Source: Thermoplasmata archaeon (GTDB taxonomy: Archaea > Thermoplasmatota > Thermoplasmata > GCA-020350865). From it: 6,948 bases of DNA. The stretch covers positions 1,162,149 to 1,169,096 of the forward strand of contig CP070726.1 of the NCBI GenBank assembly GCA_020350865.1, given 5' to 3'. Shown piece by piece: positions 271 to 6,948 of this stretch (the first letter of the stretch is position 1; every line of letters begins with the position of its first letter). Both the position numbers and the translations under genes were made by a program. The notes beneath the pieces are model-generated. The model made no database searches, was not told where the DNA came from, and saw only the letters and a list, made by a program, of their open reading frames with translations.

Positions 271-1383
271 ATGAAACTTCATGAATACAAGGCCAAGGAG
301 ATCTTTGCCGACTATGGTTTACCGGTGCCGGAGGGCCTGCTGGTCAAGCATCCCGAGGACCTGAAGGAATTCGACTTTCCCGTGGTGCTCAAATCCCAGG
401 TTCTGGTGGGCGGGAGGGGCAAGGCAGGCGGAATAAAGTTCGCCGATACCCTGGAGGAGGCCAGGGCAAAAATCGGGGAGCTGCTCGATATGGAAATCAA
501 GGGCCTTCCCGTGAAACTTGTTCTTGTGGAGAAGAAGGCAGACATCGTCAAGGAATTCTACGTCGGTTTCGTTGTTGACAGGGCCGCAAAGAGAAACGTT
601 CTGATACTGTCATCTGCGGGGGGGATGGACATCGAGGAGGTGGCCAGGACAAGTCCCGATAAGATCGTGAAACTAGCAATCGCTCCAAAAGAGGGCCTCG
701 AGCCTTATCAGGTGAGGGTGGCGGTCAAGAAGCTGGGACTTTCCGGAAAGGAGATGGTGAAGGTGGCGGATGTGGCCACGAAGCTCTACAGGGCATTTAC
801 GGAGTACGACGCTGAACTTGCGGAGATCAATCCTTTAGCCCTCACGCCCGATGGATTCATTGGTGTGGATGCCAAGATGAACATAGACGACAATGCGCTC
901 TACCGCCACAAGGAGCTGGCAAGGGAGTTTGCCAAAAGCGAGGAATACACGAGCATCGAGAAGATGGCAAAGGAGGCCGGTCTCTCCTATGTGGAACTGG
1001 AGGGCGATATCGGTGTGATCGGGTGCGGTGCGGGTCTCGTAATGGCCTCTTTGGACACACTTGCGCTGTACGGAGGGAAAGCCGCCAATTTCCTTGATGT
1101 CGGAGGGGGGGCCAATGCCGAGAACATGAGGCGCGCCCTTGAGCTCATTTTAATGAAGGAGGGGCTCAAATCCATTTTCATCAACATCTTCGGCGGTATT
1201 ACAAGGTGCGACGAAATCGCACACGGCATCGTGGACTTCGCCCCCGAAATCCCCATTTCGGTGCGCATGATGGGCACCAACGAGGAGGAGGGGAAGAAGA
1301 TACTTATCGACAACGGTTATGTGATCAGGGACTCCATCGAGGAGAGCGCAAAGGAGGCCATCCGGCTTGCGGGAGGCGGGTGA
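271..1383 (+). CDS. sucC: Succinyl-CoA synthetase (ADP-forming), beta subunit
   Basis: Encodes 370 residues of the nucleotide-binding subunit of succinyl-CoA synthetase, the cytoplasmic TCA-cycle enzyme that interconverts succinyl-CoA plus NDP and phosphate with succinate, CoA and NTP. The N-terminal half (about 1-235) is an ATP-grasp domain: MKLHEYKAKE start, glycine-rich loop GGRGKAGGIK (47-56), and metal-site motifs EINPLA (185-190) and VDAKMNIDDNA (199-209). The C-terminal half is the CoA-ligase fold with NFLDVGGGA (273-281) and NIFGGITRCDEIAHGI (305-320), the segment that meets the phosphohistidine of the alpha subunit. The length is slightly under the roughly 390 residues of bacterial SucC, as is usual in archaea. 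The stop codon abuts the sucD start, consistent with balanced synthesis of the two subunits. ADP rather than GDP use is assumed from the family, not read from residues. Confidence 0.97.
   Translation: MKLHEYKAKEIFADYGLPVPEGLLVKHPEDLKEFDFPVVLKSQVLVGGRGKAGGIKFADTLEEARAKIGELLDMEIKGLPVKLVLVEKKADIVKEFYVGFVVDRAAKRNVLILSSAGGMDIEEVARTSPDKIVKLAIAPKEGLEPYQVRVAVKKLGLSGKEMVKVADVATKLYRAFTEYDAELAEINPLALTPDGFIGVDAKMNIDDNALYRHKELAREFAKSEEYTSIEKMAKEAGLSYVELEGDIGVIGCGAGLVMASLDTLALYGGKAANFLDVGGGANAENMRRALELILMKEGLKSIFINIFGGITRCDEIAHGIVDFAPEIPISVRMMGTNEEEGKKILIDNGYVIRDSIEESAKEAIRLAGGG
1371..1380 (+). promoter_or_regulatory. Ribosome binding site that supports the GTG start of sucD
   Basis: GGGAGGCGGG lies inside the last codons of sucC (residues G-G-G). 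Its GGAGG core (1372-1376) is seven bases before the GTG at 1384. This supports a GTG start directly after the sucC stop rather than any downstream ATG; the first ATG in frame (M28) would remove the CoA-binding glycine loop. Confidence 0.7.
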
Positions 1384-2247
1384 GTGGCCATCATCATCGA
1401 TTCCGAAACCAGGGTTGTGGTGCAGGGCATCACTGGGGGTCAGGGGAAGTTCCACACAAAGGTCATGAAGGAGTACGGCACGAACATCGTTGCAGGTGTC
1501 ACACCGGGTAAGGGCGGAGGCTCGGTGGAGGATGTCCCTGTTTTCGATACCATAGCAGAGGCGGAGGGAGAGCCGAACGCATCGATCATATTTGTCCCTG
1601 CCCCCTTTGCCAAGGACGCGGCCTTGGAGGCCATTGACTTCGGCTTGAACCCAGTAGTAATCATCACGGAGCGCATACCCATTCAGGATTCAATCCACAT
1701 CATGAGCAAGGCGCAGGAGAAGGGCACAATAATCGTGGGCCCGAACACGCCGGGTGTCATCTCGCCGGGCAAATCGAAGATGGGGGTCATGCCCGCACAT
1801 GTGTTTTCCCAGGGAAAAGTGGGCCTGATCTCCAGGAGCGGAACCCTCACATACGAGATCGCCAACAGCCTGAGCAGGGCAGGTCTGGGGCAGTCAACGA
1901 CCGTAGGATTGGGAGGGGACCCAGTGGTGGGCCAAAACTTCGTGGATGTCCTCGAGATGTTCAAATCGGATGGGCAGACAGAAGCCGTGGTCCTGGTGGG
2001 CGAGATTGGGGGCAGTGCCGAGGAGCAAGCCGCAGAATATATCAAGAAGGGATATCCGAAACCTGTTGTTGCCTACATCGCCGGAAGAACAGCACCCCCG
2101 GGAAAGAGGATGGGACATGCAGGTGCCATCGTATCAGGTGGTATGGGAACCGCTGACAGCAAAATTGCGGCATTGACCGAGGCGGGTGTTGCGGTGGCGG
2201 AGCTGCAAAGCGAGATTGCCGGGATGATTTCAGAGAAGATACCATGA
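1384..2247 (+). CDS. sucD: Succinyl-CoA synthetase (ADP-forming), alpha subunit
   Basis: Encodes 287 residues, the usual length, of the catalytic subunit that binds CoA and carries the transient phosphohistidine. The N-terminal Rossmann-type CoA-binding domain (about 5-140) shows GITGGQG (15-21), the VTPGKGG loop (39-45), ITERIP (94-99) and GPNTPG (119-124). The ligase domain follows with SRSGTLTYE (150-158), GLGGDPVVG (175-183), GEIGG (206-210) and GHAGAI (244-249), whose His245 corresponds to the phosphorylated His246 of E. coli SucD. Translation starts at GTG with no gap after sucC, so the two subunits are almost certainly made together from one transcript. The stop codon overlaps the start of abce1 in ATGA. 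All key residues are present, and nothing suggests a broken gene. Confidence 0.97.
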   Translation: MAIIIDSETRVVVQGITGGQGKFHTKVMKEYGTNIVAGVTPGKGGGSVEDVPVFDTIAEAEGEPNASIIFVPAPFAKDAALEAIDFGLNPVVIITERIPIQDSIHIMSKAQEKGTIIVGPNTPGVISPGKSKMGVMPAHVFSQGKVGLISRSGTLTYEIANSLSRAGLGQSTTVGLGGDPVVGQNFVDVLEMFKSDGQTEAVVLVGEIGGSAEEQAAEYIKKGYPKPVVAYIAGRTAPPGKRMGHAGAIVSGGMGTADSKIAALTEAGVAVAELQSEIAGMISEKIP

Positions 2248-4013
2248 GAATCGCCGTACTTATGAGGGACAGGTGCCAGCCCAAACGGTGCTCGCTGGAA
2301 TGCCACAAGTACTGTCCGAAGGTGAGAACAGGGGACGAGACCATTGTCATGGGGGAGGACGGCAAGCCCATCATCTCCGAGGAGCTGTGCCCCGGTTGCG
2401 GTATCTGTATCCACAAATGCCCTTTCGAAGCCATAAGAATCGTTGGCCTGCCGGAAGAGCTGGAGGAGGACCTTGTGCACCAGTTCGGAAAGAACGCCTT
2501 CAGGCTCTTCAGACTGCCCACACCGAAAGAGGGCCGCGTCATAGGCCTTCTTGGCCCCAATGCCATCGGCAAGACAACCATCATCAATATCCTCTCAGGC
2601 AACCTCATTCCCAACCTCGGTGACTACGAGTCAGAGCCTTCATGGGATCCTGTCCTCGAGCATTACGCCGGCACCGAGGTTTCCAATCACCTAAAGAAGC
2701 TGGCGGACGGCTCCGTAAGAACCTCGCTAAAACCCCAGTACGTAGATAAGATACCCAAGCTCTACGAGGAGCAGGTGGACACCCTATTAAAAAAGAGCGA
2801 CGAAATAGGCCAGCTGGATAGGGTTATAGCGGGCCTCGACTTAGAAGGCTGCCTTGACAGAAGGACCTCGGATCTTTCAGGGGGAGAACTCCAGAGGCTG
2901 ACCATTGCCGCCACCATGCTGAAGGAAGCTGATATCTATTTCTTCGACGAGCCCTCATCCTACCTGGATATTTACCAGCGTTTGTCCGTGGCCAAGGCCA
3001 TCAGGGAGCTTTCTAGGGTAAAGCAGGTGATAGTGATAGAACACGATCTGGCGGTACTGGATTTTCTCGGGGATGAAGTATACCTCATGTACGGCTCCGA
3101 GGGAGCGTACGGTATAATCGCTCACCCCAGGGTTGTGAGAAGCGCCATAAACACGTATCTATCTGGCTATATGAGGGAGGAGAACATCAGGTTCAGGGAT
3201 ACCGAGATACACTTTGAGACCCATGCACCCAGGACAGGCTGGGACACGCCAATGCTCATAGAATTCGGGGAGCTGGAGAAGGCATTCAACGGTTTTGTAC
3301 TGGAAACCAGGGCCGGAAAGGTCAATTCGGGCGAGGTTGTGGGTGTCGTGGGAAGGAATTCCACAGGCAAAACAACGTTTGTGAAGATGCTGGCCGGTCT
3401 CATCCTGCCCACAAAAGGCTCCTTGAACACACAGGTGAAGGTTAGCTACAAACCCCAGTACCTGAAGCCCGATTTCGAAGGCAGTGTGAGGGAGTTGTTC
3501 CTAACCAAGGTGGGAAAGGAATTCGAGTCGGGTTTTTATCAGTCCGAGATATTCCATCCGCTCAATCTGAAAGCCCTTCTGGACAGCCTCATACCCAGTC
3601 TGTCAGGTGGCGAGCTGCAGCGGGTTGCCATTGCCCTGTGCCTCATGACGGAGGCCGATATGTACCTCATCGATGAGCCCTCGGCGTACCTGGATTCAAG
3701 CCAGAGGATGGTTGCCGCAAGAACCATTAGAAGGGTCATGGAGAAGAGCGGCAAATCCTCCCTGATTGTCGATCATGATGTGTACTTCATTGACCTGGTC
3801 TCGGATTCGATCATGGTCTTCGGAGGAGAGCCTTCCAGGCACGGTATAAGTGAGGGGCCTTTCCATTTAAGAGAGGGTATGAACAAGTTCTTACAAAACG
3901 TGGGAATCACATTCAGAAGGGACCCCGATACAAAGAGGCCCAGAATCAACAAGCTGGATTCAGTGCTTGATCGCGAGCAGAAGGCGAAAGGGGAATATTA
4001 CTACACCGATTGA
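2244..4013 (+). CDS. abce1: ABCE1 / RNase L inhibitor-like ribosome-recycling ATPase
   Basis: Encodes 589 residues of the soluble twin-ATPase that splits ribosomes into subunits after termination and stays on the small subunit toward initiation. The N-terminal Fe-S domain has the eight expected cysteines: C11, C16, C20, C24 and C49, C52, C55, C59, for two [4Fe-4S] clusters. NBD1 has Walker A GPNAIGKTT (104-112), Q-loop LKPQY (162-166), signature LSGGELQR (211-218), Walker B YFFDEPS with E236, and H267. NBD2 has Walker A GRNSTGKTT (370-378), Q-loop YKPQY (402-406), LSGGELQR (453-460), YLIDEPS with E478, and H511. Both P-loops replace the usual middle Gly (GxNGxGKT) with Ala or Ser, a mild deviation. 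The MRIAVL start matches the family, and it overlaps the sucD stop by four bases with only a weak upstream GAGAAG (2233-2238), so translation is probably coupled to sucD. Confidence 0.98.
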   Translation: MRIAVLMRDRCQPKRCSLECHKYCPKVRTGDETIVMGEDGKPIISEELCPGCGICIHKCPFEAIRIVGLPEELEEDLVHQFGKNAFRLFRLPTPKEGRVIGLLGPNAIGKTTIINILSGNLIPNLGDYESEPSWDPVLEHYAGTEVSNHLKKLADGSVRTSLKPQYVDKIPKLYEEQVDTLLKKSDEIGQLDRVIAGLDLEGCLDRRTSDLSGGELQRLTIAATMLKEADIYFFDEPSSYLDIYQRLSVAKAIRELSRVKQVIVIEHDLAVLDFLGDEVYLMYGSEGAYGIIAHPRVVRSAINTYLSGYMREENIRFRDTEIHFETHAPRTGWDTPMLIEFGELEKAFNGFVLETRAGKVNSGEVVGVVGRNSTGKTTFVKMLAGLILPTKGSLNTQVKVSYKPQYLKPDFEGSVRELFLTKVGKEFESGFYQSEIFHPLNLKALLDSLIPSLSGGELQRVAIALCLMTEADMYLIDEPSAYLDSSQRMVAARTIRRVMEKSGKSSLIVDHDVYFIDLVSDSIMVFGGEPSRHGISEGPFHLREGMNKFLQNVGITFRRDPDTKRPRINKLDSVLDREQKAKGEYYYTD

Positions 4014-4192: not shown

Positions 4193-6948
4193 ATGGCACA
4201 GTCCGAGAACGACAGACGCAGATGTCCTAACTGTCGATCATTTGTTTCAGCCGAGGATAAGAGATGCAACAAGTGCGGAAAAAAGCTGACAAAGCCCGAT
4301 GAGAACGGCTCGAAAAAAGGCCTTGGCAAAGCTCTCTCGGAGAAGTACAAGGAGAGATTTGCACCAGGGGATAAAAAGAAAAAAAAGGCAAGGGATAAAG
4401 AGAAAAGAGAAAACGCCCTGAGCATGTTCTCCCTTTTACCAAACATAGGCAGGACAAGGGCCATTACACTGTGGGATGCGGGTTTTCGGAGCCTCGACGA
4501 TCTGAGGAAGGCAACCGTGGATGATATAGCTTCTGTAAAAAGCATAGGCAGCACGCTGGCAGAGAAGATCAAGGAAAGCCTTTCCACCTTCGGGGAGGGG
4601 ATACCAGAGAAAGAGGGCATAATCATATGCTCCTCCTGCGGTGCCCTGCTTACTGCGAAGACGAGCGTATGCGGTCTGTGTGGCACCAAAGTGGGTGAAG
4701 GGGAGGTGGAAGAGGAGGAAATCATCCTGGAGGAGGCAAAGGTCGATGAGGGTGTTTTTGTCTGCGGCAACTGCGGATCATTTGTGGAGGAGGCAGCGGG
4801 TATATGCGACACCTGCGGTGCCATTTTGGAGGAGGAGCTGGAGGCGGTAGAAGAGGAGATATTCGAACTGCCACCCATTGAAGAGGAGGAAGATGTAGAG
4901 GTCATTTTTCTGTGCCCAGAATGCGGCGGTTTTCTCACTGCCGATGCCACCATATGTCCGAAATGCGGGGTCCAGTTGGAGGAGATTGAAGAGGTTGAAA
5001 AAATTGAGGAAATCGAAGAGATTGAACCCGAACCAATTGAAGAAAAAATCGAACCTGAAGTGGTAAAGGAAGTACCTGATGTAGAGCCTGAGCTGTTCTT
5101 GTGCCCTGAGTGCGGTGCCTTCATTACGAGGACCACCACAGAATGCAGTACATGCGGTACCATCATAGAATTCGAGGAAGAGGCGGCATTGGAGCCTGAA
5201 ATCACCCCTGAGATTGAGGCCGAGGCAGAACCTGAGGAGGAAAAACCTGAACTGTTCTTGTGTCCCGCATGCGGGGCCTTCGTGAGAGCGGATGCCGGGG
5301 AGTGCAGTGCCTGCGGGGCCATCATAGAATTAGAGGAAGAAGCCCCAATTAAGGCTGTGCCTGAGCCCGAGATTGCGGAGGAAATGGAAGCCGAGGCGGA
5401 ATTGGAGGAGGTGAAACCGGATCTCTTTATCTGCCCTGAGTGCGGTGCCTTTATGACCTCCAGGGCCACCGAGTGCGGTATCTGCGGAACGGCTTTTGCC
5501 CCTGAAATGGCGGAAAGGGAGATCAGAGTTGAAGAACCCAAAATTGCAGAAGAAGCACCAGAAATCCCCTATGAAGAAGCTGAGCCTTCTTTGCTGTACA
5601 TCTGTCCCTCCTGCGGAGCCTTTGTTAAGGATGATGCCGAGAGATGTTTGATATGCGATACAGACCTCACGGGACGAGAGCTGGAGATCCCACCCGTAGA
5701 AGAGCTCATAGTCGAGGAGGAATTGAGAAGGGCGGAGATAGAACCCGAGGAGGAATTCGAGGCCGAAATCAAGAGCCTCGAGGCATCTTTGGAGAAGATA
5801 AAGCCCGTGATAATGCCCGGCCTCTCCAACGGCCTGATCAACGGTGTCAGGATGAGAAGAAAGGTCGTTGCAGGTGTGACAAATGGCCTCACCAACGGCC
5901 TCACCAATGGCCTGACAAACGGACTGAAAGCCCGGAGAAGAGCACGGTTGGGCGTCACGAACGGCCTAATAAACGGTCTCACCAACGGTCTGACGGAGGG
6001 GCTGACAAACGGCCTGATAAACGGAATGAGGGTGAGAAGAAGGACTCTGCCTGGAATCACAAACGGTCTAACCAACGGATTGACAAACGGCCTGACAAAC
6101 GGTCTTCGGCGGCTGAAGCTTGGACTCTCGGAAGGTGTGACAGATGGAAACGGAATAACGAACGGCCTGAGCGCCGTGACAGAAACCCTAAGAACTTCCA
6201 GCGGAACCGCCAGGATGATTGCCGTGATCATATTCGTTTTGGTGCTTTTAACATCACCTATCCTGATCAACTCGCTGGTTCCCCCACACAAGGCCATGGA
6301 GATCGATGGGGAATTTGGGGATTGGAGTGATATCCCAGCCTACTCGGACTCATTGACCGATCAGATGTTGAATGAGGACGTCAATTTAGCAGAATACAAA
6401 ATGTCTGTGAACAGGTGGGGTGATGTTTCCCTGTACATAAAAGTGAATGGAACCATACTGAACGGTGTCCACGGTTTGGATGCTGTGAATATCTTTATTG
6501 ACGAGGATAATGACCCAAACACGGGTTATAGGATCTCCACATTGGGTGCAGATAAAAGGGTCATTGTCACAGGATGGAATAACTTCATCTATCAAAAAGG
6601 ATACAGTGAGTTCAATTCGTCGCGCTCCCAAACGGATATAAACGGCTTCGATAACTTCTACATACTTCCCGCTGCCATCAGCGAAAATGAACTGGAGACG
6701 AGGTTATGGCTTTCCGCTCTCACCCCAGACCTCGATAAGACAATAAAACTGGTATTCGCCACAAGGGATTCGGCTGGAAACGAGGACCTATCTGACATCA
6801 TAATCGGCCAGATTTATGGAGCTCTGATAATAAACCAGAAGAGCATTGCCTCCCAGCTCATTCCCAAGGGCTACAGTAATATTGCCATGCTCAGATTGGA
6901 TATGGAGGCCCTTGGTGAAGATATGAGTGTTGGCATGATAAATGTTAC
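4193..6948 (+). CDS. Membrane-anchored zinc-ribbon/HhH protein with Asn-Gly repeats and surface domain (3' end missing)
   Basis: Unrecognised as a named family. The frame is open for 918 codons to the window edge. Order of parts: zinc ribbon (C11, C14, C25, C28); Lys-rich linker (41-75); helix-hairpin-helix-like domain (78-132) with LLPNIGRTRA and VKSIGSTLAEKI hairpins; seven more CX2C-X10-CX2C ribbons (146-488) joined by Glu-rich linkers; acidic, probably helical stretch (489-540); xNGL repeats with Arg-rich spacers (543-660); transmembrane helix (675-696); then a beta-sandwich-like domain with IDGEFGDW (704-711) and DEDNDPNTGY (770-779), the latter like a calcium loop, and sequons N752-G-T and N808-S-S. 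Arg674 before the helix and no N-terminal signal suggest N-in, C-out. Residues from about 883 may begin another outside domain. Its own promoter separates it from abce1. A link between a surface sensor or binding domain and DNA, RNA or protein partners inside is inferred. Confidence 0.92.
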   Translation, partial: MAQSENDRRRCPNCRSFVSAEDKRCNKCGKKLTKPDENGSKKGLGKALSEKYKERFAPGDKKKKKARDKEKRENALSMFSLLPNIGRTRAITLWDAGFRSLDDLRKATVDDIASVKSIGSTLAEKIKESLSTFGEGIPEKEGIIICSSCGALLTAKTSVCGLCGTKVGEGEVEEEEIILEEAKVDEGVFVCGNCGSFVEEAAGICDTCGAILEEELEAVEEEIFELPPIEEEEDVEVIFLCPECGGFLTADATICPKCGVQLEEIEEVEKIEEIEEIEPEPIEEKIEPEVVKEVPDVEPELFLCPECGAFITRTTTECSTCGTIIEFEEEAALEPEITPEIEAEAEPEEEKPELFLCPACGAFVRADAGECSACGAIIELEEEAPIKAVPEPEIAEEMEAEAELEEVKPDLFICPECGAFMTSRATECGICGTAFAPEMAEREIRVEEPKIAEEAPEIPYEEAEPSLLYICPSCGAFVKDDAERCLICDTDLTGRELEIPPVEELIVEEELRRAEIEPEEEFEAEIKSLEASLEKIKPVIMPGLSNGLINGVRMRRKVVAGVTNGLTNGLTNGLTNGLKARRRARLGVTNGLINGLTNGLTEGLTNGLINGMRVRRRTLPGITNGLTNGLTNGLTNGLRRLKLGLSEGVTDGNGITNGLSAVTETLRTSSGTARMIAVIIFVLVLLTSPILINSLVPPHKAMEIDGEFGDWSDIPAYSDSLTDQMLNEDVNLAEYKMSVNRWGDVSLYIKVNGTILNGVHGLDAVNIFIDEDNDPNTGYRISTLGADKRVIVTGWNNFIYQKGYSEFNSSRSQTDINGFDNFYILPAAISENELETRLWLSALTPDLDKTIKLVFATRDSAGNEDLSDIIIGQIYGALIINQKSIASQLIPKGYSNIAMLRLDMEALGEDMSVGMINV
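4418..4588 (+). other. Helix-hairpin-helix domain of the large protein
   Basis: Residues 76-132 contain two hairpin motifs: LLPNIGRTRAITLWDAGF (81-98) and ASVKSIGSTLAEKIKESL (113-130), with SLDDLRKATVDDI between them. This is the HhH pair pattern of the RadA/Rad51 N-terminal and related domains (consensus LPGIGxxxAxxLxxAGFxSxxDL...IxGIGxxxAxKI). In known families it binds DNA without sequence specificity or mediates protein contacts. The first hairpin has Asn where Gly is usual. Confidence 0.8.
4628..5656 (+). repeat. Array of seven tandem zinc ribbons
   Basis: Cysteine quartets sit at residues 146/149/160/163, 191/194/205/208, 241/244/255/258, 304/307/318/321, 357/360/371/374, 414/417/428/431 and 471/474/485/488. 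Every one has CX2C-X10-CX2C spacing, as has the separate ribbon at 11-28. The consensus is roughly CPxCGAFhxxxAxxCxxCGxxh. Linkers are acidic and vary, so start-to-start distances are 45-63 residues. Ribbons at 304, 357, 414 and 471 are the most alike; bases 5102-5121 and 5432-5451 are identical over 20 positions, indicating internal duplication. The ribbons probably each bind one zinc and may be protein- or nucleic-acid-binding. Confidence 0.9.
5819..6172 (+). repeat. xNGL tetrapeptide repeat array with basic spacers
   Basis: Residues 543-660 contain 17 Asn-Gly dipeptides, mostly as T/I-N-G-L. Blocks hold 2 (545-552), 4 (563-578), 6 (589-612) and 4 (623-638) tetrapeptides. They are separated by three ten-residue basic spacers of one pattern, RMRRKVVAGV, KARRRARLGV and RVRRRTLPGI, and followed by a decaying tail with SEGV, TDGN and ITNGL. 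Synonymous codons differ freely between copies (AAC/AAT, GGC/GGT/GGA, CTC/CTG/CTA/TTG), so the pattern is kept at protein level and is not fresh DNA slippage. No fold is known to me. Confidence 0.9.
6215..6280 (+). other. Single transmembrane helix of the large protein
   Basis: Residues 675-696 are a 22-residue hydrophobic run (MIAVIIFVLVLLTSPILINS and two more) preceded by Arg674 and the Arg/Lys-rich repeat zone. By the positive-inside rule the zinc-ribbon half lies in the cytoplasm and the residues after 697 lie outside. It is the only clear membrane segment in the visible protein. Confidence 0.85.

Follow-up and report, generated by a model that had tools for sequence, protein, structure and literature searches.

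The window analysed here is a stretch of 6,948 nucleotides from a Thermoplasmata archaeon (assembly GCA_020350865.1, contig CP070726.1, forward-strand positions 1,162,149 to 1,169,096), and its 3' part (4193..6948, + strand) holds an open reading frame (ORF) for a membrane-spanning protein, of which 918 amino acids (aa) are visible, the 3' end lying beyond the window. Our analysis places this protein in a large, apparently undescribed family, whose members with a helix-hairpin-helix (HhH) pair and zinc ribbons recur behind the genes of a KaiC-type ATPase and a winged-helix protein, while other members are fused in frame to KaiC. The novelty lies in this gene context, and the system may be viewed as KaiC-associated signalling with a membrane partner of a new class. 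We hold with about even confidence that the family supplies such signalling modules, built around KaiC, with a receptor-like subunit that crosses the membrane. Should the fuller picture drawn below be true, no family of transmembrane receptors for KaiC-based signalling would have been recognised earlier. The reading offers a candidate function for a set of some 250 or more proteins in the databases (246 with E <= 0.001), and the operon together with the natural KaiC fusions would supply defined parts for expression and testing. To our knowledge, how archaea without two-component systems sense their surroundings is an unsettled question, and neither are the transmembrane inputs of KaiC-like ATPase hubs settled. 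A census that covers 11 Thermoplasmata genomes lists almost no two-component proteins for them, with entries of 3 and 4 under what we take to be the histidine-kinase and response-regulator columns (PMC5847659).

The family was collected by a search of about 5.8 billion proteins, in which those 246 relatives were found among 7991 candidates scored; the best 120 of them are the listed relatives used below. The part that aligns with window residues 655-918, hereafter the core, is present in 117 of these 120. Upstream of the members with HhH and zinc ribbons, the same two genes recur on different contigs in a conserved three-gene operon: KaiC (about 290 aa) comes first, followed after mostly about 2 bases by the double winged-helix protein (about 230 aa) and, a further 80-100 bases or so downstream, by the core gene. 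The operon KaiC matches PF06745 (E 4e-37 and 7e-38 in two examples), its nearest PDB structures are KaiC chains, and the motifs G.SGAGKTT (Walker A) and DPLTPV are kept in at least 90% of 31 rows; the winged-helix partner, with about 235 aa, shows winged-helix domains in two places (HTH_24, TrmB, HVO_0163_N).

The order to which genome G361 belongs, where the core occurs in 33 of 37 genomes, was surveyed for this arrangement. The survey of these 37 genomes yielded 34 best KaiC matches, one per genome (E <= 2.5e-122), all of which were inspected. The core gene follows KaiC on the same strand in 28 of the 34, starting 762-807 bases past the KaiC end, and these following cores carry zinc ribbons in 28/28, HhH in 27/28 and the winged-helix gene in between in 27/28. 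In three further loci (G391, G394, G416) an HhH/zinc ORF after KaiC is cut by the contig end, in two the contig stops 865 (G413) and 28 (G419) bases beyond KaiC, and in one (G423) KaiC is disrupted, its two parts standing about 6 kb apart. Of the 34 loci, 31 show the winged-helix gene. The other 68 KaiC matches in the order all lack an adjoining listed core, as paired by eye with a core table limited in length and to E <= 1e-15, so that weak ones were possibly missed. Outside this order, the set of KaiC, winged-helix and core genes was met in G322 (twice), G357 (twice), G324 and G081 (twice), the operon cores of G081 being without HhH, and G006 has a looser form of it. KaiC may also stand directly by the core gene, 1-9 bases ahead of it in L037, L047, L070 and L071 (first gene). 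The locus with the disrupted KaiC, L106 (G423:C1:1066000-1083000), has the 5' part of KaiC at 1080877-1081557 and the 3' part at 1074528-1074755 with the core gene still following, and the split looks like an insertion. The longest zinc-ribbon array among the retrieved cores, 17 motifs, is found in a 2889-aa member within a KaiC operon (L069:5192-13861).

The 34 core genes retrieved before our attention fell on KaiC include 12 with a same-strand KaiC no more than 3.5 kb upstream, which is not a fair rate for the family since the set was chosen partly for zinc-ribbon matches; later-retrieved loci, eleven of them selected for KaiC, were excluded. The adjacency follows the zinc ribbons: KaiC stands upstream of 11 of the 17 cores with zinc ribbons versus 1 of the 17 without (one-sided hypergeometric p about 4e-4, calculated by hand with relatedness ignored); a contig start truncates three of the zinc-free cores (L034 first gene, L040, L067), which may have lost their ribbons. 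KaiC was searched around these cores with two queries, one of which was L070's own neighbour.

The second line of evidence is the fusion of the two proteins. In 48 of 160 proteins, made up of listed relatives and retrieved loci, KaiC is fused in frame to the core, and 44 of the 48 have a zinc ribbon. The fusions were called with one phmmer query (P0026 residues 1-235); 43 come from the listed relatives (E <= 3e-23), and the retrieved loci contribute 5 ORFs, of which L047 is the weakest at 8e-10. In a tree of 154 core domains, for which six of the 160 rows shorter than 200 residues were left out, the window protein groups with 58 other rows, 56 of them with HhH and zinc ribbons (SH-aLRT 88). 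KaiC lies upstream in 7/7 rows of this clade whose context is known, or 7/8 when the window is counted, and the KaiC fusions occur in a sister branch of the core family. A fixed adjacency in one branch and a fusion in its sister are the classical signs of two proteins working together.

The window protein itself was first described in a sequence-only reading, which saw eight CX2C-X10-CX2C motifs, an HhH pair, a basic NG-repeat zone, one membrane helix and a domain with IDGxxxDW and DxDxDPxTGY motifs, took the whole as a connector between the inside and the outside of the cell, and offered for it a surface sensor, a chromosome or ribonucleoprotein anchor, or a DNA-uptake or envelope scaffold. 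The cytoplasmic elements of this description are borne out. The eight zinc motifs start at residues 11, 146, 191, 241, 304, 357, 414 and 471, whereas 2000 shuffles of the protein averaged 0.0005 motifs and never gave more than 1, and zinc-ribbon models lie far above their thresholds (Pfam Zn_ribbon_3, 91.6 bits versus a cut-off of 27). By Pfam and motif scan, all on the + strand, ribbon 1 (residues 11-28) is at 4223..4276, ribbon 2 (146-163) at 4628..4681, ribbon 3 (191-208) at 4763..4816, ribbon 4 (241-258) at 4913..4966, ribbon 5 (304-321) at 5102..5155, ribbon 6 (357-374) at 5261..5314, ribbon 7 (414-431) at 5432..5485 and ribbon 8 (471-488) at 5603..5656; ribbons 2-8 (residues 146-488) are spaced by acidic linkers. 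Between ribbons 1 and 2 lies the HhH pair (residues 73-131, 4409..4585, + strand), with the hairpins PNIGRTRA and KSIGSTLA. It is recognised by Pfam HHH_5 over residues 82-130 (34.0 bits versus a gathering cut-off of 27) and placed at 73-131 by a family HMM built partly from the window protein.

The basic NG-repeat zone (residues 536-665, 5798..6187, + strand) is juxtamembrane, on the presumed cytoplasmic side, and holds 17 NG pairs, whereas 2000 shuffled versions of it averaged 3.3 and never exceeded 10; by the shuffles, chance or composition is rejected both for these pairs and for the zinc motifs. Its 15 NGL/NGM units are encoded by 12 different 9-base codings, which indicates that the repeat is maintained at the protein level. 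A recent DNA repeat as the origin of the zone is excluded by these codings and by the NG zones found ahead of the adjacent helix in 117/117 listed core relatives. In the relative P0117 the NG zone is modelled at a pLDDT of about 30, and by analogy the zone of the window protein is probably disordered.

The HhH pair raises another explanation, namely that the protein anchors the chromosome or a ribonucleoprotein at the membrane, with the HhH pair and the zinc ribbons binding DNA or RNA. Among solved structures compared by sequence, the pair is indeed nearest to nucleic-acid-handling proteins (eL32, E 1.6e-5; a ski2-type helicase, 8.6e-5; UvrC, 0.0096; DisA, 0.016), and both hairpins, as read from the sequence, retain the G-type turn. 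HhH pairs and zinc ribbons also act as protein-binding modules, however, and the operon partners are KaiC and a regulator, although the members at L038 and L045 adjoin DNA polymerase-like and GTPase-like genes. Beyond the HhH itself nothing was found that points to such an anchor, and we consider it unlikely. The third option, a component of a DNA-uptake, pilus or secretion apparatus, appears very improbable. It could draw on a weak match of the HhH pair to the ComEA-type structure 8dfk_A (E 0.072) and on two genes near a core paralogue (L052:7954-8976) which by eye begin like archaeal type IV pilins, and nothing beyond these was found for it; no other competence, pilus or secretion gene was recognised by eye, without a systematic scan, in 14 neighbour lists, and Pfam finds no such domain in the window protein.

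The cytoplasmic array is followed by a transmembrane helix (residues 675-693, 6215..6271, + strand, by hydropathy; 670-695 in the AlphaFold model) and by a surface CBM9-like beta-sandwich (residues 700-876, 6290..6820, + strand), with IDGEFGDW at its start and DEDNDPNTGY inside; at 6821..6946 (+ strand) begins the link to a next ectodomain, which is cut by the window end and through which the alignment runs on in relatives. The single membrane helix of the earlier description holds for the visible fragment only, because in full-length relatives the IDG domain occurs once more beyond the point of the cut and another membrane helix lies at the C-terminus. The IDG and DxDxDPxTGY motifs do belong to one well-modelled beta-domain (AlphaFold), and model comparison gives a CBM9-type fold, the matches spanning mainly model residues 64-215. 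By sequence, no known family for the surface domain was found in Pfam or PDB: no Pfam CBM9 match occurs in the window protein or in 21 A2 family members, Glucodextran_C matches 2 of these 21 (best E 0.0037), and a PDB profile search with the domain gave 3 matches at E 0.37-0.91, which we judged as chance. The domain may be called sugar-binding-type with regard to its CBM9-like modelled fold, with sugar binding itself putative. The second ectodomain of P0117 also appears CBM9-like as judged by the core HMM and the IDG motif.

As for topology, the charge before the helix is more positive than after it in 117/117 core relatives (medians +5 and -2), and a C-terminal helix is visible in 64 of the 117, some of the remainder being fragments; positive charge is greater after than before this second helix in 63 of 64. 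We thus infer that the HhH pair and zinc-ribbon array lie in the cytoplasm and the CBM9-like domain outside. The idea of a connector between inside and outside gains support from this charge bias, from the NG zone with its adjacent helix and from the CBM9-like surface fold. The relatives' ectodomains often add a lamin-tail domain and DUF11-type domains, and their C-terminal helix bears a putative PEF-like motif and a basic tail. Against the PEF-CTERM model TIGR03024, 4/5 of the relatives' C-termini score 16.4-21.2 bits, below the cut-off of 23, with none shown for L045, and full-length P0026 scores 7.1 bits against the same cut-off; the archaeosortase model TIGR04178 is above its cut-off in 14/15 genomes of relatives.

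Among the options of the sequence-only reading, it is the surface sensor that gains most, from the operon with KaiC and the winged-helix protein and from the KaiC fusions in relatives. In the fuller picture, which we put forward tentatively and somewhat below even confidence, a CBM9-type receptor with its HhH/zinc-ribbon array on a disordered NG stalk would control a KaiC that drives the double winged-helix regulator, as the Thermoplasmatota's own device for signalling across the membrane. In the receptor reading, held with about even confidence, the ectodomain would meet its ligand, which may be a surface glycan, a neighbour or a state of the envelope; the cytoplasmic HhH/zinc-ribbon part would dock the KaiC-like ATPase in physical contact, and the ATPase would act on its partner, the double winged-helix regulator. 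The signal would accordingly run from ectodomain to cytoplasmic array, then to KaiC and to the winged-helix regulator.

The strongest competitor is that the family consists of structural surface proteins with an anchor at each end, acting as envelope scaffold, adhesin or substitute for an S-layer; the cytoplasmic modules would only tether or oligomerise them, and KaiC with the regulator would control their production. The large ectodomains with CBM9-like, lamin-tail and DUF11-type domains would suit this role, as would the PEF-like C-termini of relatives (below the cut-off) along with the archaeosortases. Paralogues are many, in the manner of an adhesin set: with at most 45 candidates scored per genome, matches to the whole window protein reach 41 in the 2.2 Mb genome G257, where zinc-ribbon and HhH matches are counted too and a gene may contribute several pieces. 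Thermoplasmatales are also described as having no paracrystalline S-layer and an unordered glycoprotein layer instead (PMC12448462), a setting that would have a use for either a scaffold or a receptor. On the other hand, an in-frame KaiC fusion would be unneeded for mere control of expression, and KaiC adjacency follows the zinc-ribbon part, not the ectodomain that is universally shared. A scaffold of this kind is a serious possibility, which we nevertheless take as doubtful.

Several observations weigh against the receptor reading and should be set beside it. Neither KaiC nor the winged-helix gene was found by tblastn in the 4.2 kb upstream of the window copy, the matches to these queries appearing only at E >= 0.049 with the best one within rli, and Pfam finds no classical signalling domain in the window protein. 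The window branch in the core tree is long, and its clade, supported at 88, does not reach the starred level. Around the window helix the charge is -1 before and -6 after, the same direction as in the relatives with a weak bias. The operon would also fit a role of KaiC and the regulator limited to control of surface-protein expression, and KaiC is next to hardly any of the zinc-free cores (the single case in 17 given above). Finally, 20 genomes from across the phylum yielded 19 such KaiC genes (E <= 9.5e-83), of which 11 have a downstream core; the remaining ones comprise L085, where a truncated ORF ends in an NG repeat, and seven without a core (L079-L084, L086), and these coreless KaiC/winged-helix pairs suggest that the pair serves other partners too. 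In these seven loci the same KaiC type, with a winged-helix partner nearby, adjoins other genes. As the window displays only the upstream side of the membrane-protein gene, its downstream side being outside, the window copy is either an orphan or has its partner KaiC encoded elsewhere or downstream of the window; for a receptor, it may work through a KaiC encoded elsewhere.

In comparison with known systems, Makarova, Galperin and Koonin reportedly proposed in 2017 that KaiC-like ATPases are signal-transduction hubs in archaea. The present system resembles such hubs in its KaiC-type ATPase, which has intact Walker motifs and either shares an operon with a winged-helix regulator or is joined to other domains. 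It differs from them in its partner, a single large protein that spans the membrane and has a CBM9-like ectodomain, and in that the gene order is fixed over one order and some genomes outside it, with the window copy being KaiC-less in view. A proposed precedent for KaiC and a transcription regulator acting jointly is CirA-CsmR of Haloferax volcanii, where a KaiC homologue is proposed to tune a transcription regulator of cell shape and motility (PMC13286277); no comparable transmembrane partner appears in the accessible part of that source. TackOD1, a CXXC-rich zinc-ribbon-like output domain of thaumarchaeal signalling proteins (PMC5847659), gives only a weak profile match to the window protein, 18.9 bits versus a cut-off of 32.

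With the fold group of CBM9, the gamma-subunit of ethylbenzene dehydrogenase and glucodextranase, the surface domain has the beta-sandwich in common by model comparison; it is unlike them in lacking a Pfam CBM9 match and in its place directly after the membrane helix. TcaA-type bacterial proteins have a cytoplasmic zinc ribbon, a membrane helix and extracellular domains. The layout here is similar, with zinc ribbon inside, membrane helix and ectodomain outside, whereas the NCBIfam equivalog model reaches 28.2 bits against a cut-off of 550 and covers residues 9-46 only, so the window protein falls outside that family.

The build noted in the window protein does not stand alone, and 54 of the 117 core relatives combine HhH and at least one zinc ribbon with the NG zone, the membrane helix and the CBM9-like domain, as counted with HhH and core HMMs derived partly from the same proteins. 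In line with the earlier remark that no protein of this build was described, no description of the family was found in the open-licence PMC literature, as far as titles and the beginnings of abstracts mostly tell. Most listed relatives are unnamed, and some are named for single domains (lamin tail, HhH, zinc ribbon, TPR). Alternative N-termini on the core include KaiC ATPase domains and TPRs, and in P0091 four extra hydrophobic helices, so that the core, as far as its sequence goes, is seen as a shared platform carrying exchangeable cytoplasmic modules. The organism names among the 120 listed relatives are only Thermoplasmata/Thermoplasmatota, 'Methanobacteriota archaeon' or 'Euryarchaeota archaeon'. 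The core was found in 35 of 389 genomes sampled from the phylum of G001 (Candidatus Thermoplasmatota), with at most 6 candidates scored per genome, and it's often in several copies. A viral origin was rejected, with no relative in one scan of viral contigs. The scan of genome contigs returned two poor loci: L001 aligns only with window residues 72-134, and L002 (Lachnospiraceae) with the NG zone.

Some members and module proteins depart from the common build. Paralogues are numerous in G257 and G254 (L046, L049-L052, L094-L097); several have almost lost the NG zone, and some begin with HhH without a zinc ribbon. A 768-aa protein at L048:5136-7442 has HhH, six zinc-ribbon motifs and one predicted hydrophobic helix without the CBM9-like core, which means that the cytoplasmic modules exist also without the surface part. 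The members at L038:4858-8562 and L045:3701-7768 carry 5-6 zinc ribbons, with HhH near residue 130 in L038, and stand between a gene for a TPR protein on one side and, by eye, genes for GTPase-like and B-type DNA polymerase-like proteins on the other, a second conserved context, without KaiC, in two genomes.

In the window, the frame of the membrane-protein ORF (4193-6946) stays open with no stop codon up to the window end, and a GAGG-type ribosome-binding sequence, read from the letters, is directly 5' of it. Farther 5' on the same strand are sucC, sucD and rli (the archaeal ABC protein RLI), arranged head to tail at window 271-4013, with sucD and rli overlapping by 4 bases; these neighbours mark the window as archaeal. 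Its rli is nearest to that of G081 (66%), followed by those of G383, G294 and G361 (64-65%), and no close genome occurred in the sample. In L058, L059 and L060 (G383, G294 and G361), several kilobases from rli, lie proteins of 324-331 aa that have 6-7 zinc-ribbon motifs and lack a predicted membrane helix.

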